Part shown: positions 37,530 through 53,947 of the stretch, piece after piece
How positions within the stretch are numbered: the first letter of the stretch is position 1
Layout: every line of letters begins with the position of its first letter
Assembly (NCBI RefSeq): GCF_036365825.1
Contig: NZ_CP142675.1
Location: 1,860,001-1,924,000 of the forward strand
Reading direction: 5' to 3'
From: Qipengyuania sp. HL-TH1
GTDB lineage: Bacteria; Pseudomonadota; Alphaproteobacteria; Sphingomonadales; Sphingomonadaceae
DNA: 64,000 nt
The notes under the pieces: model-generated
The model's input: the letters and a program-made list of their open reading frames with translations, nothing else
What the model was told of the DNA's origin: nothing
Database searches by the model: none
Program-made: the position numbers and the translations under genes

Positions 37530-38183
37530 TTGTCAAGTAACGAACCGAAGCGCACCGGGCGTCCGGCCGACGAGGCCAAACGCGAGGCGATCCTGGCCGC
37601 CGCGGCCGCCAGCTTCTTCGAGCACGGGTTTGCCGCCAGTTCGATCGAGCAGATCGCAGCTGATGCGGGCGTTTCGAAAGTCACGATCTACAACCGGTTC
37701 GGCGACAAGCGCGCGCTGTTTGCGGCGGCAGTCGAGGTCGAATGCGAACAGATCCGGGGCAGCCTGCAAGTCCCCGAGGTCGCCTCGGGCAGTCTGCGCG
37801 ATCGGCTGACCGCGGTGGGCGAGGCGATGGTCGCGTTCACGTCGCGGCCCAAGATGGTCCAGTTCGAACGGCGCATCGCGGCCGAGACCGAGCATGACCC
37901 GGCGGTTGGCGCAGCCTTCCTCGAGGCCGGCCCGCATCGCATGAAGGAGTCTTTCGCGGCGCTGATCGCCGCGATGCACGAAACGGGGGAAGTCGATGTC
38001 GCCGACCCCGCGCTCGCCGCCGAGCAGTTCGCCGGCATGTGCAAGGGAATGGGCGATCTCGAACGCCGCTTCGGCGCGCCCGCCGACCCGCAGCGCAATC
38101 GCGAGCGGATCGCCGGCGCAGTCGAGGTATTCTGCCGCGCCTATGCCCGCGACCCGTCCTGCGAGACCGAGGCGGGGAGCTAG
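37530..38183 (+). CDS. TetR-family repressor of the ABC efflux operon
   Basis: The product is 217 residues from a TTG at 37530, 8 bases after GGAGG. The DNA-binding domain is at residues about 14-62 (FEHGFAASSIEQIAADAGVS, then KVTIYNRFGDKRALFAAAVE). The C-terminal helices form a ligand pocket of the AefR/TetR_C type (GMGDLERRFGAPADP). It is divergent from the pump genes and overlaps two palindromic sites, so it most likely represses both itself and the pump until an exported compound binds. Its stop overlaps that of motB by 4 bases in convergent orientation. Confidence 0.92.
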   Translation: MSSNEPKRTGRPADEAKREAILAAAAASFFEHGFAASSIEQIAADAGVSKVTIYNRFGDKRALFAAAVEVECEQIRGSLQVPEVASGSLRDRLTAVGEAMVAFTSRPKMVQFERRIAAETEHDPAVGAAFLEAGPHRMKESFAALIAAMHETGEVDVADPALAAEQFAGMCKGMGDLERRFGAPADPQRNRERIAGAVEVFCRAYARDPSCETEAGS

Positions 38184-39007
38184 TTCTCCAGCGAGATCGA
38201 GATCCGGCGGTTGCGCGGATCGGTGGGATCGCCCGCGATCAGCGGTTCGGTATCCGCGACCCCTTCGATCCGGCGGAAGCGCTCGCGCGCAATCCCGTGA
38301 CGGATGAGATCCTGCCGCGTCGTTTCCGCGCGCCCGGCCGACAGCGACCAATTGTTGACCCGCGTCGGATCGCGATATTTGAGCGCATCGGTATGGCCGC
38401 GCACGGTGATCTTGCCGCCTTCGGGCGCGATCGCTTCGGCGACGAGATCGAGCAGGTCGCGCGCATCGGTGGTGAGGACCGTCGTGCCGAGCGAGAACAT
38501 CGAGAAATCGGCATCATCGACCAGGTCGATCCTAATGCCGGTGGTGGTGTTGATCATCCGCACCTGGCGCATCAGCCGCTTGAGCCGTTCGCGGTCGGCG
38601 ACCGCTTCGGTCACGCGCTGCTGGATACGCTTGATGCTCGCCGCGCCTTCCTTGGGCCCACCCGTGGCATCGCGCGGAACGGTCAGCGTCTGGGTCCCCG
38701 TCTGCCCCGCGGCATGCGGGTAGTTATCGACGTCGACGAGCGACGACCCGCCCAACACGCCGTCGGCGCCCGCGCTTTGTTCCTTGGTCTTCACCAGCGT
38801 CGGAGTGAAATAGTCCGCCAGCCCCTTGCGCTGGTCCTCGGTGGTTGCACCGAGCAGCCAGAGCAGCAGGAAGAACGCCATCATCGCGGTGACGAAATCG
38901 GCATAGGCGACCTTCCAGGCGCCGCCATGATGACCCGCCTCGACGACGGTCACCTTCTTGACGATGATCGGGGCCGGATCGTTGCGACCCGCGGCGGAGC
39001 TGGCCAT
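38180..39007 (-). CDS. motB: Flagellar motor stator protein MotB
   Basis: The product is 275 residues. One N-terminal membrane span contains the proton-binding Asp37 (YADFVTAMMAFFLLLWLLG). A flexible linker is followed by an OmpA-like peptidoglycan-binding domain (ITVRGHTDAL, NWSLSAGRAETTRQDL, NRRISISLEN) that anchors the stator to the cell wall. It is one base downstream of motA, and both sit at the 3' end of the flgB-flgL run, so they may be expressed with the hook and basal-body genes rather than only late. Confidence 0.95.
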   Translation of the reverse strand: MASSAAGRNDPAPIIVKKVTVVEAGHHGGAWKVAYADFVTAMMAFFLLLWLLGATTEDQRKGLADYFTPTLVKTKEQSAGADGVLGGSSLVDVDNYPHAAGQTGTQTLTVPRDATGGPKEGAASIKRIQQRVTEAVADRERLKRLMRQVRMINTTTGIRIDLVDDADFSMFSLGTTVLTTDARDLLDLVAEAIAPEGGKITVRGHTDALKYRDPTRVNNWSLSAGRAETTRQDLIRHGIARERFRRIEGVADTEPLIAGDPTDPRNRRISISLEN

Positions 39008-39008
39008 C

Positions 39009-39872
39009 CTACCTACCCCGCAGCGCGTCGAGGAGTTCGTTCAGCCCCGGCCGCACCGTATGGCCCAGACCCGACCGCGCGCTTTCCACCACCAGCGGCT
39101 GCGGATGGCCGTAGAGCGAGGCGATGATCACCTGCTTGACCGCGTGGAAGATCTGTTCGTCCTGCTCGAGCACCTGCTTGAGCCGGCCGGCGAGCGGGCC
39201 GACGATACCATAGGCAAGCAACACGCCGAGGAAGGTGCCCACCAGCGCCGCGCCGATCATCTTGCCGAGGATTTCAGGCGGCTTGTCGATCGAGCCCATG
39301 GTTTTCACCACGCCCAGCACCGCCGCGACGATGCCCAGCGCGGGGAGCGCATCCGACAGCGTTTCAAGATTGTGCTGCGGTTCGCGCAATTCGTGGAAAT
39401 GCGTCTTCATCGCATTGTCCATCACCTCTTCGACCGCATGAGTTTCCAGCGTGCCCGACGACACCACCAGCAGCGTCAGCGTGTCGCAGATCAGCGCGAT
39501 GAGCGCGGTATTCTTGAGCAAATTGGGATAGGCGCTGAACACGGTGGAATTTTCGGGTTCCTCGAGATGGCTTTCGAGCGCCACGGGCCCATCGTTCTTG
39601 AGCATGCGCATCAGCTGCGTGGTCAGGGCGATCGCATCGATATGGTCCTGCTTGTCGTGCTGGGGCCCCTTGAAGATCTTCCCGAAAGCACGGCCGATCG
39701 CCTTGAGCCCGTCGAGCGAATTGCCCGCGACCATCGCGCCGATCGCGGCGCCGCCGATGATCAGCATTTCATAGGGCATGGCGGCCATCACCGGGCCGAG
39801 CGCGCCGCCGCTGAGCATGAAGCCGCCAAACACCATGACGAGCAGAACAACGATGCCGATAATCGCGTACAT
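39009..39872 (-). CDS. motA: Flagellar motor stator protein MotA
   Basis: The product is 287 residues with four membrane spans. It conducts protons with MotB and drives rotor turning. The N-terminus is MYAIIGIVVLLVMVFGGFML. The large cytoplasmic loop carries charged residues for FliG contact, and the last two spans have the signature PALGIVAAVLGVVKTMGSID and ALVGTFLGVLLAYGIVGPLA, including the conserved channel Pro residues. A GGAAGGAA site precedes the ATG. This is the long, E. coli-type MotA, in contrast to the shorter MotA-like protein at 47827-48483. Confidence 0.95.
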   Translation of the reverse strand: MYAIIGIVVLLVMVFGGFMLSGGALGPVMAAMPYEMLIIGGAAIGAMVAGNSLDGLKAIGRAFGKIFKGPQHDKQDHIDAIALTTQLMRMLKNDGPVALESHLEEPENSTVFSAYPNLLKNTALIALICDTLTLLVVSSGTLETHAVEEVMDNAMKTHFHELREPQHNLETLSDALPALGIVAAVLGVVKTMGSIDKPPEILGKMIGAALVGTFLGVLLAYGIVGPLAGRLKQVLEQDEQIFHAVKQVIIASLYGHPQPLVVESARSGLGHTVRPGLNELLDALRGR

Positions 39873-46891: not shown

Positions 46892-47298
46892 TTCATTCTC
46901 ATCGTTTCGAGCATGAGCTGCTTGGCGGTCGACATGGCCTCGACCATGTTGCGGTACTGGCGCGAGGCTTCGAGCATCTCGACCATCTCGGCGTTCTCAT
47001 CGACGGGGGCTTCCCAGACATCGCCGTTCTCGTCGGCGAGCGGGTGGCCCGGATCGTGGCGGCGGATCGGCGCGACATCTTCGCGCACCACCCCGCCGAC
47101 GCGGACCGACGACAGGCCCGAAGCACGGTCGAGCTCCTGCTCGAACACGGTGCGCATCGGGCGATAGGCTTCTTCCTCGCTGCCCGAGACCGAACCCGCA
47201 TTGGCCAGGTTCGACGCCGCGGTGTTCATCCGCACGAGCTGCGCGGACATGGCGCGGTGGCCAACCTCGAAGAAGGATGTGGGGCCCGCCATCGTCAT
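46888..47298 (-). CDS. flgC: Proximal rod protein FlgC
   Basis: The product is 136 residues. Typical FlgC features are VRMNTAASNLANAGSVSGSEEEAYRPMRTVFEQE and the C-terminal ENAEMVEMLEASRQYRNMVEAMSTAKQLMLETMRM. It follows flgB with a 4-base overlap and overlaps flgD by 4 bases. It is a structural rod protein. Confidence 0.94.
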   Translation of the reverse strand: MTMAGPTSFFEVGHRAMSAQLVRMNTAASNLANAGSVSGSEEEAYRPMRTVFEQELDRASGLSSVRVGGVVREDVAPIRRHDPGHPLADENGDVWEAPVDENAEMVEMLEASRQYRNMVEAMSTAKQLMLETMRMK

Positions 47299-47642
47299 TC
47301 GCCCCGGATCGCGCGAGTGACGGTTTCGACCCGTCCGCGCAGGAAGTTGAGCGTGGCGGTATAGGCCACCGCGTTTTCGGCGAAGGCCGCCTGTTCGGTC
47401 GACATCTCGACGGTGTTGCCGTCGAGGCTGGCCATGGTCGGGATACGGTACTGGATCGCGCCATCGGTCGCGCGGTCGGCCTGCGCGCCGCCAAGGCGTG
47501 CCTGCAGCGCGGCCGCAAAGTCCACGTCGCGGGCCTTGTATCCCGGTGTCGCCGCATTGGCGATATTCGAACCGAGCACACCCATGCGCTGCGACCGGAT
47601 CTCCAGTGCCGCCCCGTGAATGCCGAACAAACCTTCGCTCAT
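47295..47642 (-). CDS. flgB: Proximal rod protein FlgB
   Basis: The product is 115 residues, the FlgB size. Motifs are LEIRSQRMGVLGSNIANAATPGYKARDVDF at the start and VEMSTEQAAFAENAVAYTATLNFLRGRVETV at the end. It is the first gene of the minus-strand flgB-motB run and has a perfect sigma-54 promoter 34 bases upstream of the ATG, with GGAGG as ribosome-binding site. Confidence 0.94.
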   Translation of the reverse strand: MSEGLFGIHGAALEIRSQRMGVLGSNIANAATPGYKARDVDFAAALQARLGGAQADRATDGAIQYRIPTMASLDGNTVEMSTEQAAFAENAVAYTATLNFLRGRVETVTRAIRGE

Positions 47643-47675: not shown

Positions 47676-47691
47676 AGCAAGGGGCGTGCCA
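47676..47691 (-). promoter_or_regulatory. Sigma-54 promoter of the flgB operon
   Basis: On the minus strand the sequence is TGGCACGCCCCTTGCT, an exact match to the TGGCACG-N4-TTGCW consensus. The expected start of transcription is about 20 bases before the flgB ATG. Promoters of this class need an enhancer-binding activator; nearby palindromes are candidate sites. Confidence 0.9.
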
Positions 47692-47700
47692 AAACCCGAT

Positions 47701-47773
47701 TGCCGGGCCCCGGCAGGCGAAACCGGCAGGATGTGGCAAGGCCTTGCCGGAAAGCGGCAAAGTTCGGCTGCCG
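47701..47773. promoter_or_regulatory. Cluster of CGGCA/TGCCG palindromes in the divergent flagellar hub
   Basis: Three inverted repeats lie between flgB and the MotA-like gene: TGCCGGG-C-CCCGGCA at 47701-47715, GGCAAGGCCTTGCC at 47735-47748, and CGGCA-N9-TGCCG at 47755-47773. They are just upstream of the sigma-54 promoter on one side and a sigma-28-like promoter on the other. Binding by the flagellar enhancer protein (FlbD/FleQ type) is inference; a similar palindrome precedes flgM. Confidence 0.5.
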
Positions 47774-47775
47774 CA

Positions 47776-47802
47776 TAAATCCTGCCCGGTTCGCGCCGTT
47801 CT
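47776..47802 (+). promoter_or_regulatory. Sigma-28 (FliA)-like promoter of the MotA-like gene
   Basis: TAAA at 47776-47779, a 15-base spacer and GCCGTTCT at 47795-47802. The flagellar sigma consensus is TAAA-N15-GCCGATAA, so the -35 and the GCCG core match and the 3' half differs. The same GCCGTTCTG occurs before flgM. AGGAG lies just before the downstream ATG. Confidence 0.55.
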
Positions 47803-47826: not shown

Positions 47827-48483
47827 ATGTTGGAAACCTGGTTCGATCCCGCAGCGATCGCCATCGTCCTCGTCGGCACGCTCGTCGCCACGCTGCTGCG
47901 TTGCGGTGTGGCGGACAGCCGCATCGCCATCGCCGCACTGCGCGGATTGTTCGAACGGGCGTTCGACGTGACGCGCGCCAAGAGCGAACTGGCCCTGCAG
48001 ATCCGCGAGATTGCCGATGACGGCTTTATCCGTGCCGAACCGCATCATTTCGGCGATAGCGAATTCGACAGCCTGTCCGATCTGATCATCAGCCAGCGCT
48101 CGATCCAGTCGCTTCACGGCGAACACCAGAAATTCAAGGAAGCGCGGCTGGCCAATGCGCAGACCGCAGTGCGCGTATTCGACTGTGCGGCGGAACTGGC
48201 GCCGGTGCTGGGTCTCGCGGGCACGCTGATTGCGCTGGGCCAGGCGCAGGGCGCGGCAGCGCAGGATACCGGCCTGGTCGGCGCCATCGCCATGGCGGTC
48301 GTCACCACGCTGTACGGCCTCCTCGCCGCGAATTTCCTTTTCGCCCCGCTGGGCGCCGCAGTTGCGCGCAAGTCGCGGCAGGAAGAGCGCGACCGCGATG
48401 CGGTTCTCGAATGGCTCGCCCGCGGGATCCGCCAGACCGGCGTGGCCGGCGGCACCCCGCACAGCGAACGCGAAGCGGCATGA
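47827..48483 (+). CDS. MotA-like proton-channel protein, second stator candidate
   Basis: The product is 218 residues. Membrane spans are seen at about 7-25, 119-140 and 150-178, three in place of the four of MotA. The last two contain the MotA/TolQ/ExbB channel signature: APVLGLAGTLIALGQA and AMAVVTTLYGLLAANFLFAPLG, the second being closest to MotA, MotP and PomA (TLYG...AN.LF.PL). The cytoplasmic loop between spans 1 and 2 is helical and charged. The gene is inside the flagellar cluster, has a sigma-28-like promoter, and overlaps the next gene by 4 bases. It may be a motor stator or an accessory ion channel; a true motA lies at 39009-39872. Confidence 0.82.
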   Translation: MLETWFDPAAIAIVLVGTLVATLLRCGVADSRIAIAALRGLFERAFDVTRAKSELALQIREIADDGFIRAEPHHFGDSEFDSLSDLIISQRSIQSLHGEHQKFKEARLANAQTAVRVFDCAAELAPVLGLAGTLIALGQAQGAAAQDTGLVGAIAMAVVTTLYGLLAANFLFAPLGAAVARKSRQEERDRDAVLEWLARGIRQTGVAGGTPHSEREAA

Positions 48484-48923
48484 TCCTGCGCGCGGCTTCG
48501 GGCTGGCAGACGGTAACTGCGGACCTCGCGCTGATCCTGTTTCTGATCACGGCACAGGCGGTGCGCGAGCCTGCCGCTCCGTCGCCGCAGGAGGAGACCG
48601 AGGTCGAGGCTGAGGCCGATACCGCGGAACCCGCGCCGGTGGCATCCTCCGCGCTTGCGCTGCACAAGCCTGCCAAGGGCGAAAGCGTAGAGGAATGGCT
48701 GCTCGCCGCGGTCACCGACGAGCGGCAGGTGGCGACGATTTCGATCGGCTATGCACCCGGGCAGCGTGAAGAGGCCCTTGCCGAGGGCGAGCGTCTGCTG
48801 GCCGAAGCCGAGGCCGCAGGCGTCGCCGCCCGGCTGATTGCCATGCCGAACAGCTCCGACGACATCCTGGTGTCGGTCGATTACCTCCGTCCGGCGCCGG
48901 ATGGCACGAACCTTGCTCCATAA
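48480..48923 (+). CDS. MotB/ExbD-like partner without recognisable peptidoglycan-binding domain
   Basis: The product is 147 residues from the ATG at 48480. A single N-terminal span contains one acidic residue, Asp15, at the position used for proton binding in MotB and ExbD (TADLALILFLITAQAV). A Glu/Ala/Pro-rich linker leads to a small domain of about 75 residues (EEWLLAAVTDERQVATISIGY, then QREEALAEGERLLAEAEAAG). That domain has a beta-alpha-beta feel but lacks the GHTD and NxxLSxxRA motifs of OmpA-type domains, so cell-wall anchoring would have to differ. It is translationally coupled to the MotA-like gene. The last codons contain the flgA sigma-54 promoter. Confidence 0.75.
   Translation: MILRAASGWQTVTADLALILFLITAQAVREPAAPSPQEETEVEAEADTAEPAPVASSALALHKPAKGESVEEWLLAAVTDERQVATISIGYAPGQREEALAEGERLLAEAEAAGVAARLIAMPNSSDDILVSVDYLRPAPDGTNLAP
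48902..48917 (+). promoter_or_regulatory. Sigma-54 promoter of flgA
   Basis: TGGCACGAACCTTGCT matches the sigma-54 consensus exactly. It lies inside the last codons of the MotB-like gene and 60 bases before the flgA ATG. Confidence 0.85.
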
Positions 48924-48977: not shown

Positions 48978-49493
48978 ATGCGTCACACATTGCCCCTAAC
49001 ACTCGCCGCCGCGCTTTTTGCAAGCGCCGCCGCCGCCGCAGCGCCGATGGACCTGTCGATCATCGACCGCGCGGTCACCGATTTCACTGGCGCCGATGTC
49101 GGCCAGCCAGGAGGCGCCAAGCTGCCCGTCGACCGCCGCCTTCGGCTGACCGCCTGCCAGGCGCCGCTCGACCTGCAATGGTTCGGCCGTGACCAGCGCT
49201 CGGTCCAGATCGCTTGTCCGACTGCCGGCTGGCGCATCTATGTAGCGGTCGATGGCGGTTCGGGCAGCGGCCGCTACGCCGCCGCCCCCGAATATGGCGA
49301 AACGATCATCTCGCGCGGCGAGAACGTCAGCATCCTCGTGCGCGGCAAGGGGTTCACCCTCACCCGGCAGGGGGCTGCCGTCGAGGACGGCGCGCGCGGC
49401 GAATGGATCAAGGTCCGCGCCACTGGGCAGCGCACCGAAACGCTGCGCGCCATGGTGATCCGCCCGGGCCAGGTCGGCATCGATTTGCCGTAA
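48978..49493 (+). CDS. flgA: P-ring assembly chaperone FlgA
   Basis: The product is 171 residues. The signal peptide is MRHTLPLTLAAALFASAAAAA. It has the conserved N-terminal Cys-containing segment (RRLRLTACQAPLDLQW) and the C-terminal SAF-like domain (GETIISRGENVSILVRGKGFTLTRQGAAVEDG) ending TLRAMVIRPGQVGIDLP. It acts in the periplasm to help FlgI form the P ring. It is on the opposite strand from flgI and has its own sigma-54 promoter. Confidence 0.93.
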   Translation: MRHTLPLTLAAALFASAAAAAAPMDLSIIDRAVTDFTGADVGQPGGAKLPVDRRLRLTACQAPLDLQWFGRDQRSVQIACPTAGWRIYVAVDGGSGSGRYAAAPEYGETIISRGENVSILVRGKGFTLTRQGAAVEDGARGEWIKVRATGQRTETLRAMVIRPGQVGIDLP

Positions 49494-49543
49494 GCGGCAA
49501 AATTATTGCCGGGGAGTTAAACCCGCGCATCGATCGCCGTTCT
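49492..49543 (+). promoter_or_regulatory. Palindrome and sigma-28-like promoter of flgM
   Basis: AAGCGGCAAA at 49492 starts the palindrome CGGCAA-N5-TTGCCG (49495-49511). TTAAA at 49517-49521 and GCCGTTCT at 49536-49543 follow, 14-15 bases apart. The AAGCGGCAAA element and GCCGTTCTG also occur in the same order before the MotA-like gene, with nearly the same spacing. Confidence 0.55.
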
Positions 49544-49572: not shown

Positions 49573-49860
49573 ATGCGTATTGTCGGATTGCCGGAATTCT
49601 CGGGAGCAGTGGTGCGTCCAGGCGCAGCCATTACCCCTGCCGGAAAGGTCTCTCCCGCGCAGAAGGTGGCCACCGAAGCGCAACAGACCGAAGCCCCCAT
49701 AGCGACATCGCGCGTTTCCGCCGGCCTCGAGGGCCCTGTCGACCACGACCGCGTGGCCGATATCCGCAAGGCGCTGGAAAGCAATTCCTACCCGCTGATC
49801 CCGACCGAGATCGCCGATGCGATCATCGCTGCGGGCATGTACGGAAAGGTCGGGAAATGA
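49573..49860 (+). CDS. flgM: Anti-sigma-28 factor FlgM
   Basis: The product is 95 residues. The C-terminal half carries the FlgM signature (HDRVADIRKALESNSYPLIP, then TEIADAIIAAG) that wraps around FliA; the N-terminal half is low-complexity and probably disordered, as in known FlgM. It holds FliA inactive until the hook is complete and FlgM is exported. It is coupled to the next gene by a 4-base ATGA overlap. Confidence 0.9.
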   Translation: MRIVGLPEFSGAVVRPGAAITPAGKVSPAQKVATEAQQTEAPIATSRVSAGLEGPVDHDRVADIRKALESNSYPLIPTEIADAIIAAGMYGKVGK

Positions 49861-51124: not shown

Positions 51125-53225
51125 ACCCGCTCCGCTTCATCAACCCCGGCCTCGCGCTGCCGATCGGGATCCTGACGATCATCCTGCTGATGGTCGTCCC
51201 GATCCCGGCAATGCTGCTCGACGTCTTCTTCGTGCTCAACATCGCCTTGTCGGTGTCGGTCCTGATGGCCGCCATGAACGCGCAGAAACCGCTCGATTTC
51301 TCCTCCTTCCCCTCGGTCCTGCTGTTCGCCACGCTGCTGCGGCTCGCGCTCAACGTGGCATCGACGCGGATCGTGCTGCTCAACGGGCATGAAGGCGGCG
51401 CTGCCGCGGGCAAGGTCATCGAGGCCTTCGGCGCCTTTCTCATCGGCGGCAATTTCGCGGTCGGTATCTTCGTCTTCCTGATCCTGATGATCATCAATCT
51501 GATGGTCGTCACCAAGGGCGCGGGGCGCGTCTCCGAAGTCTCCGCCCGCTTCACGCTGGATGCATTGCCCGGCAAGCAGATGGCGATCGACGCCGATCTC
51601 GCCGCCGGGCTGCTCACCGCCGACGAAGCCAAGGCCCGCCGCCGCGAAATCGCCACGGAGGCCGATTTCTACGGTTCGATGGATGGTGCCAGCAAATTCG
51701 TGAAGGGCGATGCGGTCGCCGCGCTGCTGATCCTGCTGATCAATGTGATCGCAGGCCTGGTGCTGGGCATGTCCACCCACGATCTTTCGGCGGGCGACGC
51801 AGCCAGCTTCTACATCACGCTGGCGGTCGGCGATGCGCTGGTCGCTTCGGTCCCGGCACTGCTGCTGTCGATCGCCGCCGCGGTTATCGTCACGCGGGTT
51901 TCCGATGCGCGCAACCTGACCGACCAGATCAGCGGGCAATTGTCCGATCCGAAGATCTGGCTGCCGGTCGCCTGCATCCTGTTCATCATCGGCTGCATTC
52001 CCGCGATGCCGCAATCGATCATCCTGCCGCTGGCGGCGGGGGCGTTCTGGCTGTGGCACAGCCTGCGCAAGCGGGAAGAGGCGGAATTCAACGTTCCCGA
52101 GGCGGTGGTCATCCCCGATCCGGCGCATATCGCGATCGACGAGGTCACCGACCAGACGCTGGTTACCATCCAGCTTGGCTATGGCCTTATCCATCTGACC
52201 GACGAGAAACATGGCGCCACGCTGATCGCGCGGCTGACCGGGCTGCGCAAGCAAATGTGCCAGACCTTCGGCTTCATCGTGCCGCAGTTCCGGATCGAGG
52301 ATAGTTTCGAAGTCGATCCCGACAGCTACCGGATCACGCTGGGCGGCGCGGCGATCGGCGGCGGCAAGATCAAGCCGCACCATCTACTCGCCATCGATAC
52401 GGGCGATGTCATGCACTCGCAGGCGGTCCCCGGCGAAGCGACGATCGACCCCAGCTTCGGCTGCCCCGCGCTGTGGATCGACGCGGGCTCGCGCGACCTT
52501 GCGGTGGCCGAGGGCTATCTCGCGGTCGATCCCGAAAGCGTCATCGCCACGCAGATCCACCAATTGCTCGCCGTCAGGGCGCAGGATTTGCTCGGCCCCG
52601 ACCAGGTCCGCGACCTGATCGACCATTTGCGTGGCCGCCATGGCCAGCTGATCGAAACGATCACCCCGCAGCCGCTGTCGCTCGCGGCGGTGACTCGGCT
52701 GCTCAAGGCGCTGCTCGCCGACGGAATTTCGCTGCGTCATTCGCTGCGGGTCTTCTCTCGAGCCTTTCGCTCGCGGCGCAGCAGACTACCGAGCACGACC
52801 GCCTGATCGATATCGTCCGTGCCGACCTGGGTGCGATGATCGTCGCCGAAGCCTGCCCGCCCGATGCCAAATTGCCGGTCATCACGCTGGCCGCCCAGCT
52901 CGAAGACATGGTCGTCGGCGGGCTGCAGGACCCGGCTTCGGGCGAAATCGTGATCGAACCCGACCTCGCCCGCTCGATCGGCGAGCGTATCGCCACCATC
53001 GTGGCACAGCGCGATCCTGCCGCAACCCGGCCCGCGCTGATCGTCCAGCCGCGCGCCCGCCGCGCGCTGACCGCGCTCCTGCGCCTGCGCGCACCGCACT
53101 GCCTGGTGCTGTCGATCAACGAACTCCCCGCTGCCCAGCCGATCGAAGTGATCGCGGTGGTCGGCGACGAAGCACCCGCCCAACCTGCCCAACTCGGCCA
53201 TGAAACGGAGGCCCTCGCGGCATGA
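51121..53225 (+). pseudogene. flhA: Flagellar export gate FlhA, split by an apparent frameshift
   Basis: The first frame (51121-52806) encodes 561 residues: eight N-terminal spans with the FHIPEP-family stretch NLMVVTKGAGRVSEVSARFT, LDALPGKQMAIDADLAAG, and the start of the cytoplasmic domain, up to LLADGISLRHSLRVF. After about 52755 this frame becomes Arg/Ser-rich and stops. The remaining FlhA C-terminus (SSLSLAAQQTTEHDRLIDIV, then PALIVQPRARRALTALL and SINELPAAQPIEVIAVVG) continues in another frame to 53225. Removing one TC from TCTTCTCTCG rejoins them to give about 700 residues, the normal length. It could be a real mutation or an indel error. The joined protein is the export gate. Confidence 0.88.
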
Positions 53226-53947
53226 AGTACGACCACTCCCATTTCAAAGCGCAGCGCGCCTATGCGAGCGAGATCAACGAGCGGATCGGAAACTTCCTGC
53301 CGATGGTCCGCAAGCTGGCCTGGTATTACGAAGGCAGTTGCGGCGCATCGGTCGATGTCGACGATTTGCTCCAGGCGGGAATGATCGCGCTGACCGAATG
53401 CGCGCAGCGCCACGACCGGCCGGGCGAAGATGGCTTTGCCGCCTATGCCAAGATGCGCGTGCGGGGGGCGATGATCGACCTGTTGCGCGGGCAATCGCCG
53501 CATGCGCGCGGTGCAGCAGCGCAGCGCCGGCGGATCGATGCGACCATGGACCGCCTGCGCAGCGCCTTGGGGCGCGATCCCTCGGCCGAGGAGATGGCGC
53601 AGGAACTGCATGTTTCAGTGGGGGAATATCACGATATGCGAACACAACTGGCGACGCGGGTCGTGGATCTGGAGGACTGTTATTCGGACTCCAATCCGGC
53701 CTTCGGTTCGACCGAGCCCGATGCCGAGGCGCGGCTGCTCGAAGCCGATGACCGGACGGCGCTCGCCGAAGCCATCGCACAGCTCCCCGAGCGGTTGCAG
53801 CTGATCGTGAAGCTCCATTTCATCGAGGAGCTGAACCTGACCGAAATTGCCACGGTGCTCGATGTCAGCGTTCCGCGTGTTCACCAGCTCAAATCATCCG
53901 CGCTGGCGAAGCTCCAACTCGCCATTGTCGAACGCTCCAGCGATTAA
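53222..53947 (+). CDS. fliA: Flagellar RNA polymerase sigma factor FliA (sigma-28)
   Basis: The product is 241 residues. Region 2 is FLPMVRKLAWYYEGSCGASVDVDDLLQAGMIALTECAQ, and region 4 is LPERLQLIVKLHFIEELNLTEIATVLDVSVPRVHQLKSSALAKL. It binds RNA polymerase and directs it to late flagellar promoters, and is inhibited by FlgM (gene at 49573). Its ATG overlaps the flhA stop by 4 bases. The sigma-54 promoter at 50222 probably drives its expression. Confidence 0.95.
   Translation: MKYDHSHFKAQRAYASEINERIGNFLPMVRKLAWYYEGSCGASVDVDDLLQAGMIALTECAQRHDRPGEDGFAAYAKMRVRGAMIDLLRGQSPHARGAAAQRRRIDATMDRLRSALGRDPSAEEMAQELHVSVGEYHDMRTQLATRVVDLEDCYSDSNPAFGSTEPDAEARLLEADDRTALAEAIAQLPERLQLIVKLHFIEELNLTEIATVLDVSVPRVHQLKSSALAKLQLAIVERSSD

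Follow-up and report, generated by a model that had tools for sequence, protein, structure and literature searches.

The flagellar gene cluster of Qipengyuania sp. HL-TH1 raises the question of whether an ion unit that generates no torque could be a dedicated part of a flagellar motor. The stretch of DNA analysed here, called the window, is 64,000 nucleotides long and encodes canonical MotA and MotB as well as a second, smaller stator-like pair.

The gene pair, its neighbours and its promoters

The A subunit (MlaX, 218 amino acids) is encoded at 47827-48483 on the forward strand and matches PF01618 with 43.1 bits. The gene for the B subunit (MlbX, 147 amino acids) follows at 48480-48923 (+), and the two genes overlap by 4 bp in a common ATGA. 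The stretches TLYGLLAANFLFAPLG and TADLALILFLITAQAV are both found in the encoded proteins. A crude hydropathy scan, which gives canonical MotA five segments, one above expectation, finds three segments for the A subunit and a single one for its partner. The span of the B subunit (residues 7-28) contains Asp15 and is followed by a low-confidence stretch (31-55) and a small OmpA-like domain (approximately 58-136). A missed TM1 in the A gene is ruled out because the frame is closed by an in-frame TAA at 47776, 17 codons upstream; the open frame comprises 234 codons. The nearest named record is from Qipengyuania citrea, at 98% in the A protein.

The gene at 47295-47642 (-), which we take to be flgB, is the first of a divergent run from flgB to flgL that continues into motAB, an order conserved across loci; motAB starts 26 bp after flgL. 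Canonical motA (39009-39872, -) scores 332.8 bits against TIGR03818 (cut-off 303.8), and canonical motB (38180-39007, -) encodes MotB_plug and OmpA domains. On the other side of the pair lie flgA, encoding the P-ring chaperone (48978-49493, +; PF13144, ChapFlgA), and flgM, encoding the anti-sigma-28 factor (49573-49860, +; PF04316). A transglycosylase gene and flhA also belong to the surroundings, and a sigma factor with regions 2, 3 and 4 is encoded at 53222-53947 (+), probably by fliA (sigma-28), a name that is inferred. The genome contains five PF01618 genes: the A gene of the pair, canonical motA, and three more that score higher against PF01618 than the A gene does and are taken as ExbB/TolQ-type. 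The initial annotation had described two coupled genes encoding a three-span MotA/PomA-type channel protein and a 147-residue single-span partner with one Asp in the span, adjoining flgA and additional to real motA and motB; the description is borne out in each of these respects, including the match of the A protein to PomA (below).

The initial annotation had also assigned a sigma-28-like promoter to the pair. A site of the form TAAA-N15-GCCGTTCT is present at 47776-47802 (+), a second sigma-28-like site precedes flgM (49518-49543, +), and a looser pattern has two matches in the window versus 0.08 expected. Of 41 loci, 15 have a related site ahead of the pair; mononucleotide shuffles give a mean of 0.03, reversed sequences 1 and the opposite strand 0. 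Many of the 15 are close relatives, and four have the site 193-238 bases from the start, not approximately 50-65. The exact pattern has two matches genome-wide, as does a backwards control. Because the control matches as often, it is only conservation and position that argue for the site; genome-wide frequency lends it nothing. The flagellin gene has, as read by eye, the looser version only, TAAT-N14-GCCGGTCT. A search of open-licence papers for the sigma-28 motif yielded nothing useful.

A site of the sigma-54 type, TGGCACG-N4-TTGC, matches exactly upstream of flgB (47677-47691, -). Another exact sigma-54-type site lies upstream of flgA (48902-48916, +), where it overlaps the last codons of the B gene; the names of both kinds of site presume the usual consensus sequences. 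The flgB site is found, with a looser pattern, in 41 of 42 intergenic regions, and 35 of 41 loci have the flgA site. By these signals, the pair in the window resembles a late unit of its own. Such late expression would not be universal, because three loci of one clade (L046, L047 and L080) have instead a sigma-54-type site 27-31 bases before the A start, with flgA lacking one. Two other loci of this clade (L062 and L081) have neither type of site before the pair. The clade has type-I partners and the best-kept rotor charges, as described below. The constraint imposed by the flgA site embedded in the B gene may account in part for the conserved B C-terminus in close partners. Between the flgB and pair promoters, positions 47720-47775 contain conserved CGGCAA / TTGCCG inverted elements, and a similar element precedes flgM; these are possibly a binding site for an activator of the sigma-54-type promoters.

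Descent of the two subunits

Flagellar ion transporters (FIT) are described, in PMC12505986, as one group with four linked traits: a square fold, a torque interface, a plug and linker, and an OmpA-type domain. Profile comparison matches the A subunit to PomA at 4e-42 and to MotA at 1e-31, versus 0.003-0.009 for TolQ/ExbB. The PomA, MotP and MotA models are matched by 32/32 A rows and the TolQ model by 4/32. The predicted model (pLDDT 86) has a TM-score of 0.80 to PomA; the range is 0.70-0.80 for PomA/MotA (23 rows under 1e-3) versus 0.36-0.53 for the TolQ/ExbB rows shown. The A protein lies under the curated cut-off of the NCBIfam MotA/PomA equivalogs, with a best score of 50.3 bits versus 341. 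In the A tree, the A rows of the pair form one side of a branch supported at 72/99 (not starred) and canonical MotA stands apart at 100/99; ExbB/TolQ-type rows, of which there are three, are separated at 100/100 in a tree that the tool flags for possible long-branch attraction where long branches meet. The A subunit groups, as FIT subunits do, with flagellar MotA/PomA versus ExbB/TolQ (100/100), in agreement with the profile comparisons; among flagellar MotA, the tree gives the rows of the pair no exact position. The type-II clade sits on a long stem of 1.43 changes per site. With three spans, the A protein lacks the square four-helix transmembrane domain of FIT. Its model has helices at 28-41, 48-65, 78-89 and the start of 93-142, which would be candidates for the FIT torque interface of at least four helices. 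On profile, tree and predicted-fold grounds, the A protein is a descendant of PomA/MotA-type flagellar stators, not of ExbB/TolQ. An ExbBD/TolQR identity is dismissed on sequence, fold and tree alike. A Zorya-like phage-defence reading was also considered and set aside, there being no PADLOC match for the A or B protein.

Among profile models including Pfam, the partner encoded in the window matches no MotB, OmpA or ExbD model, and weak racemase models alone appear. These (Ala_racemase_C and a weak VanT) are below the cut-off, Ala_racemase_C is found in 2/32 members, and the racemase reading is rejected as chance; one source labels a close homologue (P0125) 'alanine racemase'. Partners align in two types, type I (A5, n=12) and type II (A6, n=26 rows), the latter being the kind in the window. 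Type I partners match PomB in two stretches, the span and the OmpA parts (4e-14). The plug-like Phe50 and Gly51 are each kept in 10/12 rows and Arg118 in 12/12. By the GHTD motif, which we assume to mark the acid position of OmpA-type domains, an Asp stands there in 7/12 type-I rows, so that the feature is patchy even in this type. The type II profile has no solved-structure match under E 1, no OmpA model match and no canonical MotB profile match. It aligns with the type I profile over 128 columns (probability 95.4, E 1.8e-8), and the type I profile in turn matches canonical MotB in the OmpA part (95.15). This chain of matches favours viewing the partner in the window as a MotB-type protein that has undergone strong reduction.

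The reduction appears to extend to both periplasmic elements of a MotB. A plug-like motif is found, by one rule, in 1/26 type-II rows versus 8/12 type-I rows, and residues 31-55 of the partner are modelled at low confidence and free of helix, leaving the plug and linker of FIT unseen. The small domain has as its top predicted-fold matches SiiA, in first place, and the OmpA and MotB domains. The claim that the B subunit lacks an OmpA domain thus holds at the sequence level, as there is no Pfam match, but not for the predicted fold, which resembles a shrunken OmpA-type domain without the wall-binding signature. Comparison of the C-terminal fold with OmpA-type domains gave this same divided outcome, resemblance in the model but no signature. 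The absence of GHTD and RA motifs was rightly noted, but the conclusion that the protein cannot be anchored like MotB is too strong, because SiiA is reported to bind peptidoglycan via two arginines (PMC12607715).

The residues of the ion channel are retained. The Asp in the span of the B subunit is invariant (32/32 rows), as are the Thr aligned with PomA T158 and both channel prolines in the A subunit (32/32 each). PomA Thr positions were found essential for Na+ (PMC6677748). The position aligned with T186 is Thr or Ser in 32/32 rows; at the T185 position, 22 rows carry Thr, 4 Ser, 5 Ala and one Cys. Since MotA rows that we take to be proton-driven carry these positions too, the kept Thr residues do not distinguish H+ from Na+.

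Charges at the rotor interface are far more variable. PomA R88, K89 and E96 are presumably the relevant residues, their identities being taken from PomA work. In one five-locus clade, the R88 position is Arg in 3/5 and the K89 position Lys or Arg in 4/5, with both basic in 3/5. The corresponding counts are Lys in 1/7 and Arg in 1/7 for the other type-I rows, and Arg in 6/20 and Arg or Lys in 8/20 for type-II rows; the A protein in the window has Ala/Asp. The E96 position is acidic in 12/12 type-I rows, including 5/5 in the five-locus clade, and in 9/20 type-II rows. The cytoplasmic part of the A protein is still conserved among close relatives. In eight comparisons near the window, dN/dS is 0.11-0.31 for A and 0.16-0.59 for B, within the range of FlgA/FlgM and above FlgB or FlhA, distant comparisons being near saturation. 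By these coding-sequence ratios, the pair is under purifying selection.

Distribution, gain and loss

The neighbourhood of the pair was surveyed in 40 loci taken by genome position, 32 from Sphingomonadaceae and eight from other families of the order. The A gene lies between divergent flgB and flgA in 32/32 Sphingomonadaceae loci (in L063 as found by motif, tblastn having missed it), and the partner is present in 31/32, being absent in L082. In the eight loci from other families, the gene is a longer one of MotA type and lies near flhA. A sequence-based search added nine contigs (L001-L009), which have identical gene order; some of them overlap with genomes of the position-based set. Approximately 1 kb above the usual distance separates the B gene from flgA in L048, L075, L078, L079 and L109.

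In a census of 199 Sphingomonadaceae genomes, 90 had strong A-profile matches; removal of G298, G320 and G322, whose matches are MotA-type genes near flhA, left 87 carriers (87/199). FlgI is encoded on the same contig as the A gene, 4.8-6.7 kb away, in 84/87 carriers; the other three (G356, G373 and G378) are draft assemblies in which no FlgI match shares a contig with the A gene. In 83/87, a match to the partner is adjacent to the A gene, no further than 336 bases from it. Of the remaining four, the A gene of G286 and of G381 sits at a contig end, the partner of G379 was found by another search, and G175 (the genome of L082) has none. Placement between flgB and flgA was itself read in 25/87 carriers. 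FlgI is present in 86/87 carriers (133/199 genomes) and MotA1 in 86/87 (128/199), and 65 genomes have neither FlgI nor the A gene; the pair co-occurs almost exclusively with a flagellar cluster, in counts that ignore kinship and with a marker, FlgI, that is shared by other kinds of flagellar cluster. Because 47/133 FlgI-bearing genomes, some with other cluster types, have no A gene, the gene is dispensable for a flagellar cluster. The reading as a replacement stator is rejected because 86/87 carriers have canonical MotA as well. The one carrier without it, G316 (L103), shows damage to its flagellar cluster: flgB and flgF are each matched in two pieces and the stretch has no MotA/MotB match, and the pair is still there.

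The distribution suggests that the pair is restricted to Sphingomonadaceae. In a search of 289 genomes of the class, only four rows, all from the family of the window, score better than 1e-60 among the matches listed, and the next is 2.5e-44. No other full-length match with a frame under 255 codons occurs among the matches listed. These scores are to be read with the carriers G379, G030 and G175 falling in the range of outsiders, and the length of a frame does not by itself give the number of spans. A search of open-licence literature gave no description recognised as this pair.

Where both ends of an empty site were found, the flgB-flgA gap is 213-528 bp, except in L097 (1,754 bp) and L124 (1,862 bp), which have approximately 1.8 kb between flgB and flgA and no pair. 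With the pair, the gap is 1,286-2,720 bp, and in L082 it is 914 bp. A tree of six flagellar proteins with 58 rows, built by a quick method, requires at least four changes to account for where the pair is present or absent. One 12-row clade is entirely without the pair, and L082 is sister to L099, whose site is empty. This pattern fits one gain followed by several losses, on a tree rooted at the midpoint and with a direction of change that depends on the root. L082 has a weak A gene (L082:6947-7624) and no partner, and is likely a snapshot of loss. In L064 (L064:7368-7958), an internal deletion has removed some of the cytoplasmic part of A, and the partner is intact.

Role of the pair and relation to known systems

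The preferred reading, to which a probability of roughly 0.5 is given, is that this flagellum-dedicated PomAB descendant serves the flagellar motor as an auxiliary unit that is driven by ions and probably decoupled from the rotor. It is based on the retention of the channel residues and on the loss or variability of TM1, the plug, the wall-binding signature and the rotor charges. A stator of the PomAB/MotAB type would have been reduced in several steps, and one branch of Sphingomonadaceae would have retained it at the place between flgB and flgA. From knowledge of the family, five A subunits would surround two B subunits and rotate as ions pass the Asp of the B subunit. The unit would be held by protein contacts instead of the cell wall, and may tune the motor through local ion flux, stator occupancy or speed, without being the main source of torque. 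The conserved cytoplasmic part of A counts against decoupling, as it could mean that rotor contact persists, and SiiA, a divergent domain of the same fold that is reported to bind peptidoglycan, counts against the unanchored state. A bolder version appears doubtful: a second rotary ion motor in the flagellum of one bacterial family, 5:2 and stator-derived, without wall anchor, plug or standard rotor charges, held by a basal-body protein and regulating or driving a step other than main torque.

It is also possible, if unlikely, that the pair is a genuine second torque stator, its A ring engaging FliG and its B dimer using the small OmpA-like domain as an anchor, in peptidoglycan or in the P ring, to add torque under some load or ion condition. 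The flagellar-type fold and conserved channel are as expected of such a stator. So are the five-locus clade, with its basic pairs and fully kept E96 acid, the type-I partners, with their plug-like Phe and Gly and invariant Arg118, and the SiiA precedent for wall binding. The protein in the window, however, has Ala/Asp at the R88/K89 positions and no TM1, and the plug-like motif has nearly vanished from type-II rows. Because both the four-span fold and the plug were looked for and are absent, the pair, as judged from sequence and model, does not belong under the heading of flagellar stators. A rather less likely alternative is an accessory channel resembling SiiAB that would act in basal-body building, export or wall remodelling, not in rotation. 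SiiA is the top fold match and is likewise made up of a span, a disordered linker and a small domain; published work describes SiiAB as a proton channel that is accessory to a secretion system (PMC12607715 and PMC6272769); and the pair lies among assembly genes (flgA, flgM, the transglycosylase gene and flhA). Descent from flagellar stators argues otherwise, as does the separation of the pair from early assembly genes in the clade of the window, where flgA is sigma-54-type and the pair late-type.

Decay is very improbable as an explanation. A stator relic without present function would agree with repeated gain or loss, with at least four changes on the flagellar tree, with L082, whose A gene is weak and whose sister lineage has an empty site, and with the deletion in L064. 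Purifying selection, with dN/dS near 1 seen in none of the eight comparisons, invariant channel residues and a partner beside the A gene in 83/87 carriers stand against it. Even slimmer is the chance that the pair is a motility-unrelated energiser of the ExbBD/TolQR type that lies in the cluster by accident, for which three spans, a short periplasmic domain and a PF01618 family spanning all these proteins could be cited. The best matches are to PomA and not to ExbB/ExbD, the model is far nearer PomA, the A gene has FlgI nearby in nearly all carriers, and the three higher-scoring PF01618 genes are better ExbB/TolQ candidates. The outcome named in advance as telling against a motor-linked pair, ExbB/ExbD-type matches without conservation beside flagellar genes, did not occur.

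The pair can be set beside several known systems. It resembles PomAB of Vibrio and MotAB of the TGI4 type in A sequence and predicted fold, in the channel Thr and Pro positions, in the Asp of the B subunit and in the match of sister partners to PomB. Unlike these stators, it has no TM1, an A subunit of 218 versus approximately 253 amino acids, no visible plug in the partner of the window, an OmpA-like domain that is small and lacks the signature, no retention of the rotor charges, and a genome that nearly always encodes an ordinary MotA too. The canonical MotAB of its own genome (TIGR03818 type) shares PF01618 and the Asp-bearing span with the pair, but belongs to another branch of the A tree and has a 287-residue A subunit with MotA_N and a B subunit with plug and OmpA domain. 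ExbBD and TolQR are similar in their three-span A and short, plug-free B subunits, and differ in the weak sequence match, low TM-score and full separation in the A tree. SiiAB, the accessory Mot/Exb/Tol pair of a Salmonella type I secretion system, is the closest functional parallel seen in print, by analogy. It serves another machine among other gene neighbours, and the pair has a flagellar context in the 32 Sphingomonadaceae loci rather than a link to type I secretion. In a comparison that covers the SiiA side, the SiiA domain is also larger (residues 93-210; PMC12607715). Relative to FIT, the family of the pair would be a derived one that is still in the flagellar cluster and has lost the four-span fold wherever examined. 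In the branch of the window, the plug and OmpA signature appear to be lost as well, with intermediate states in living lineages. The family may offer a natural series for telling the parts of a stator that serve ion flow from those for anchoring, gating and torque.
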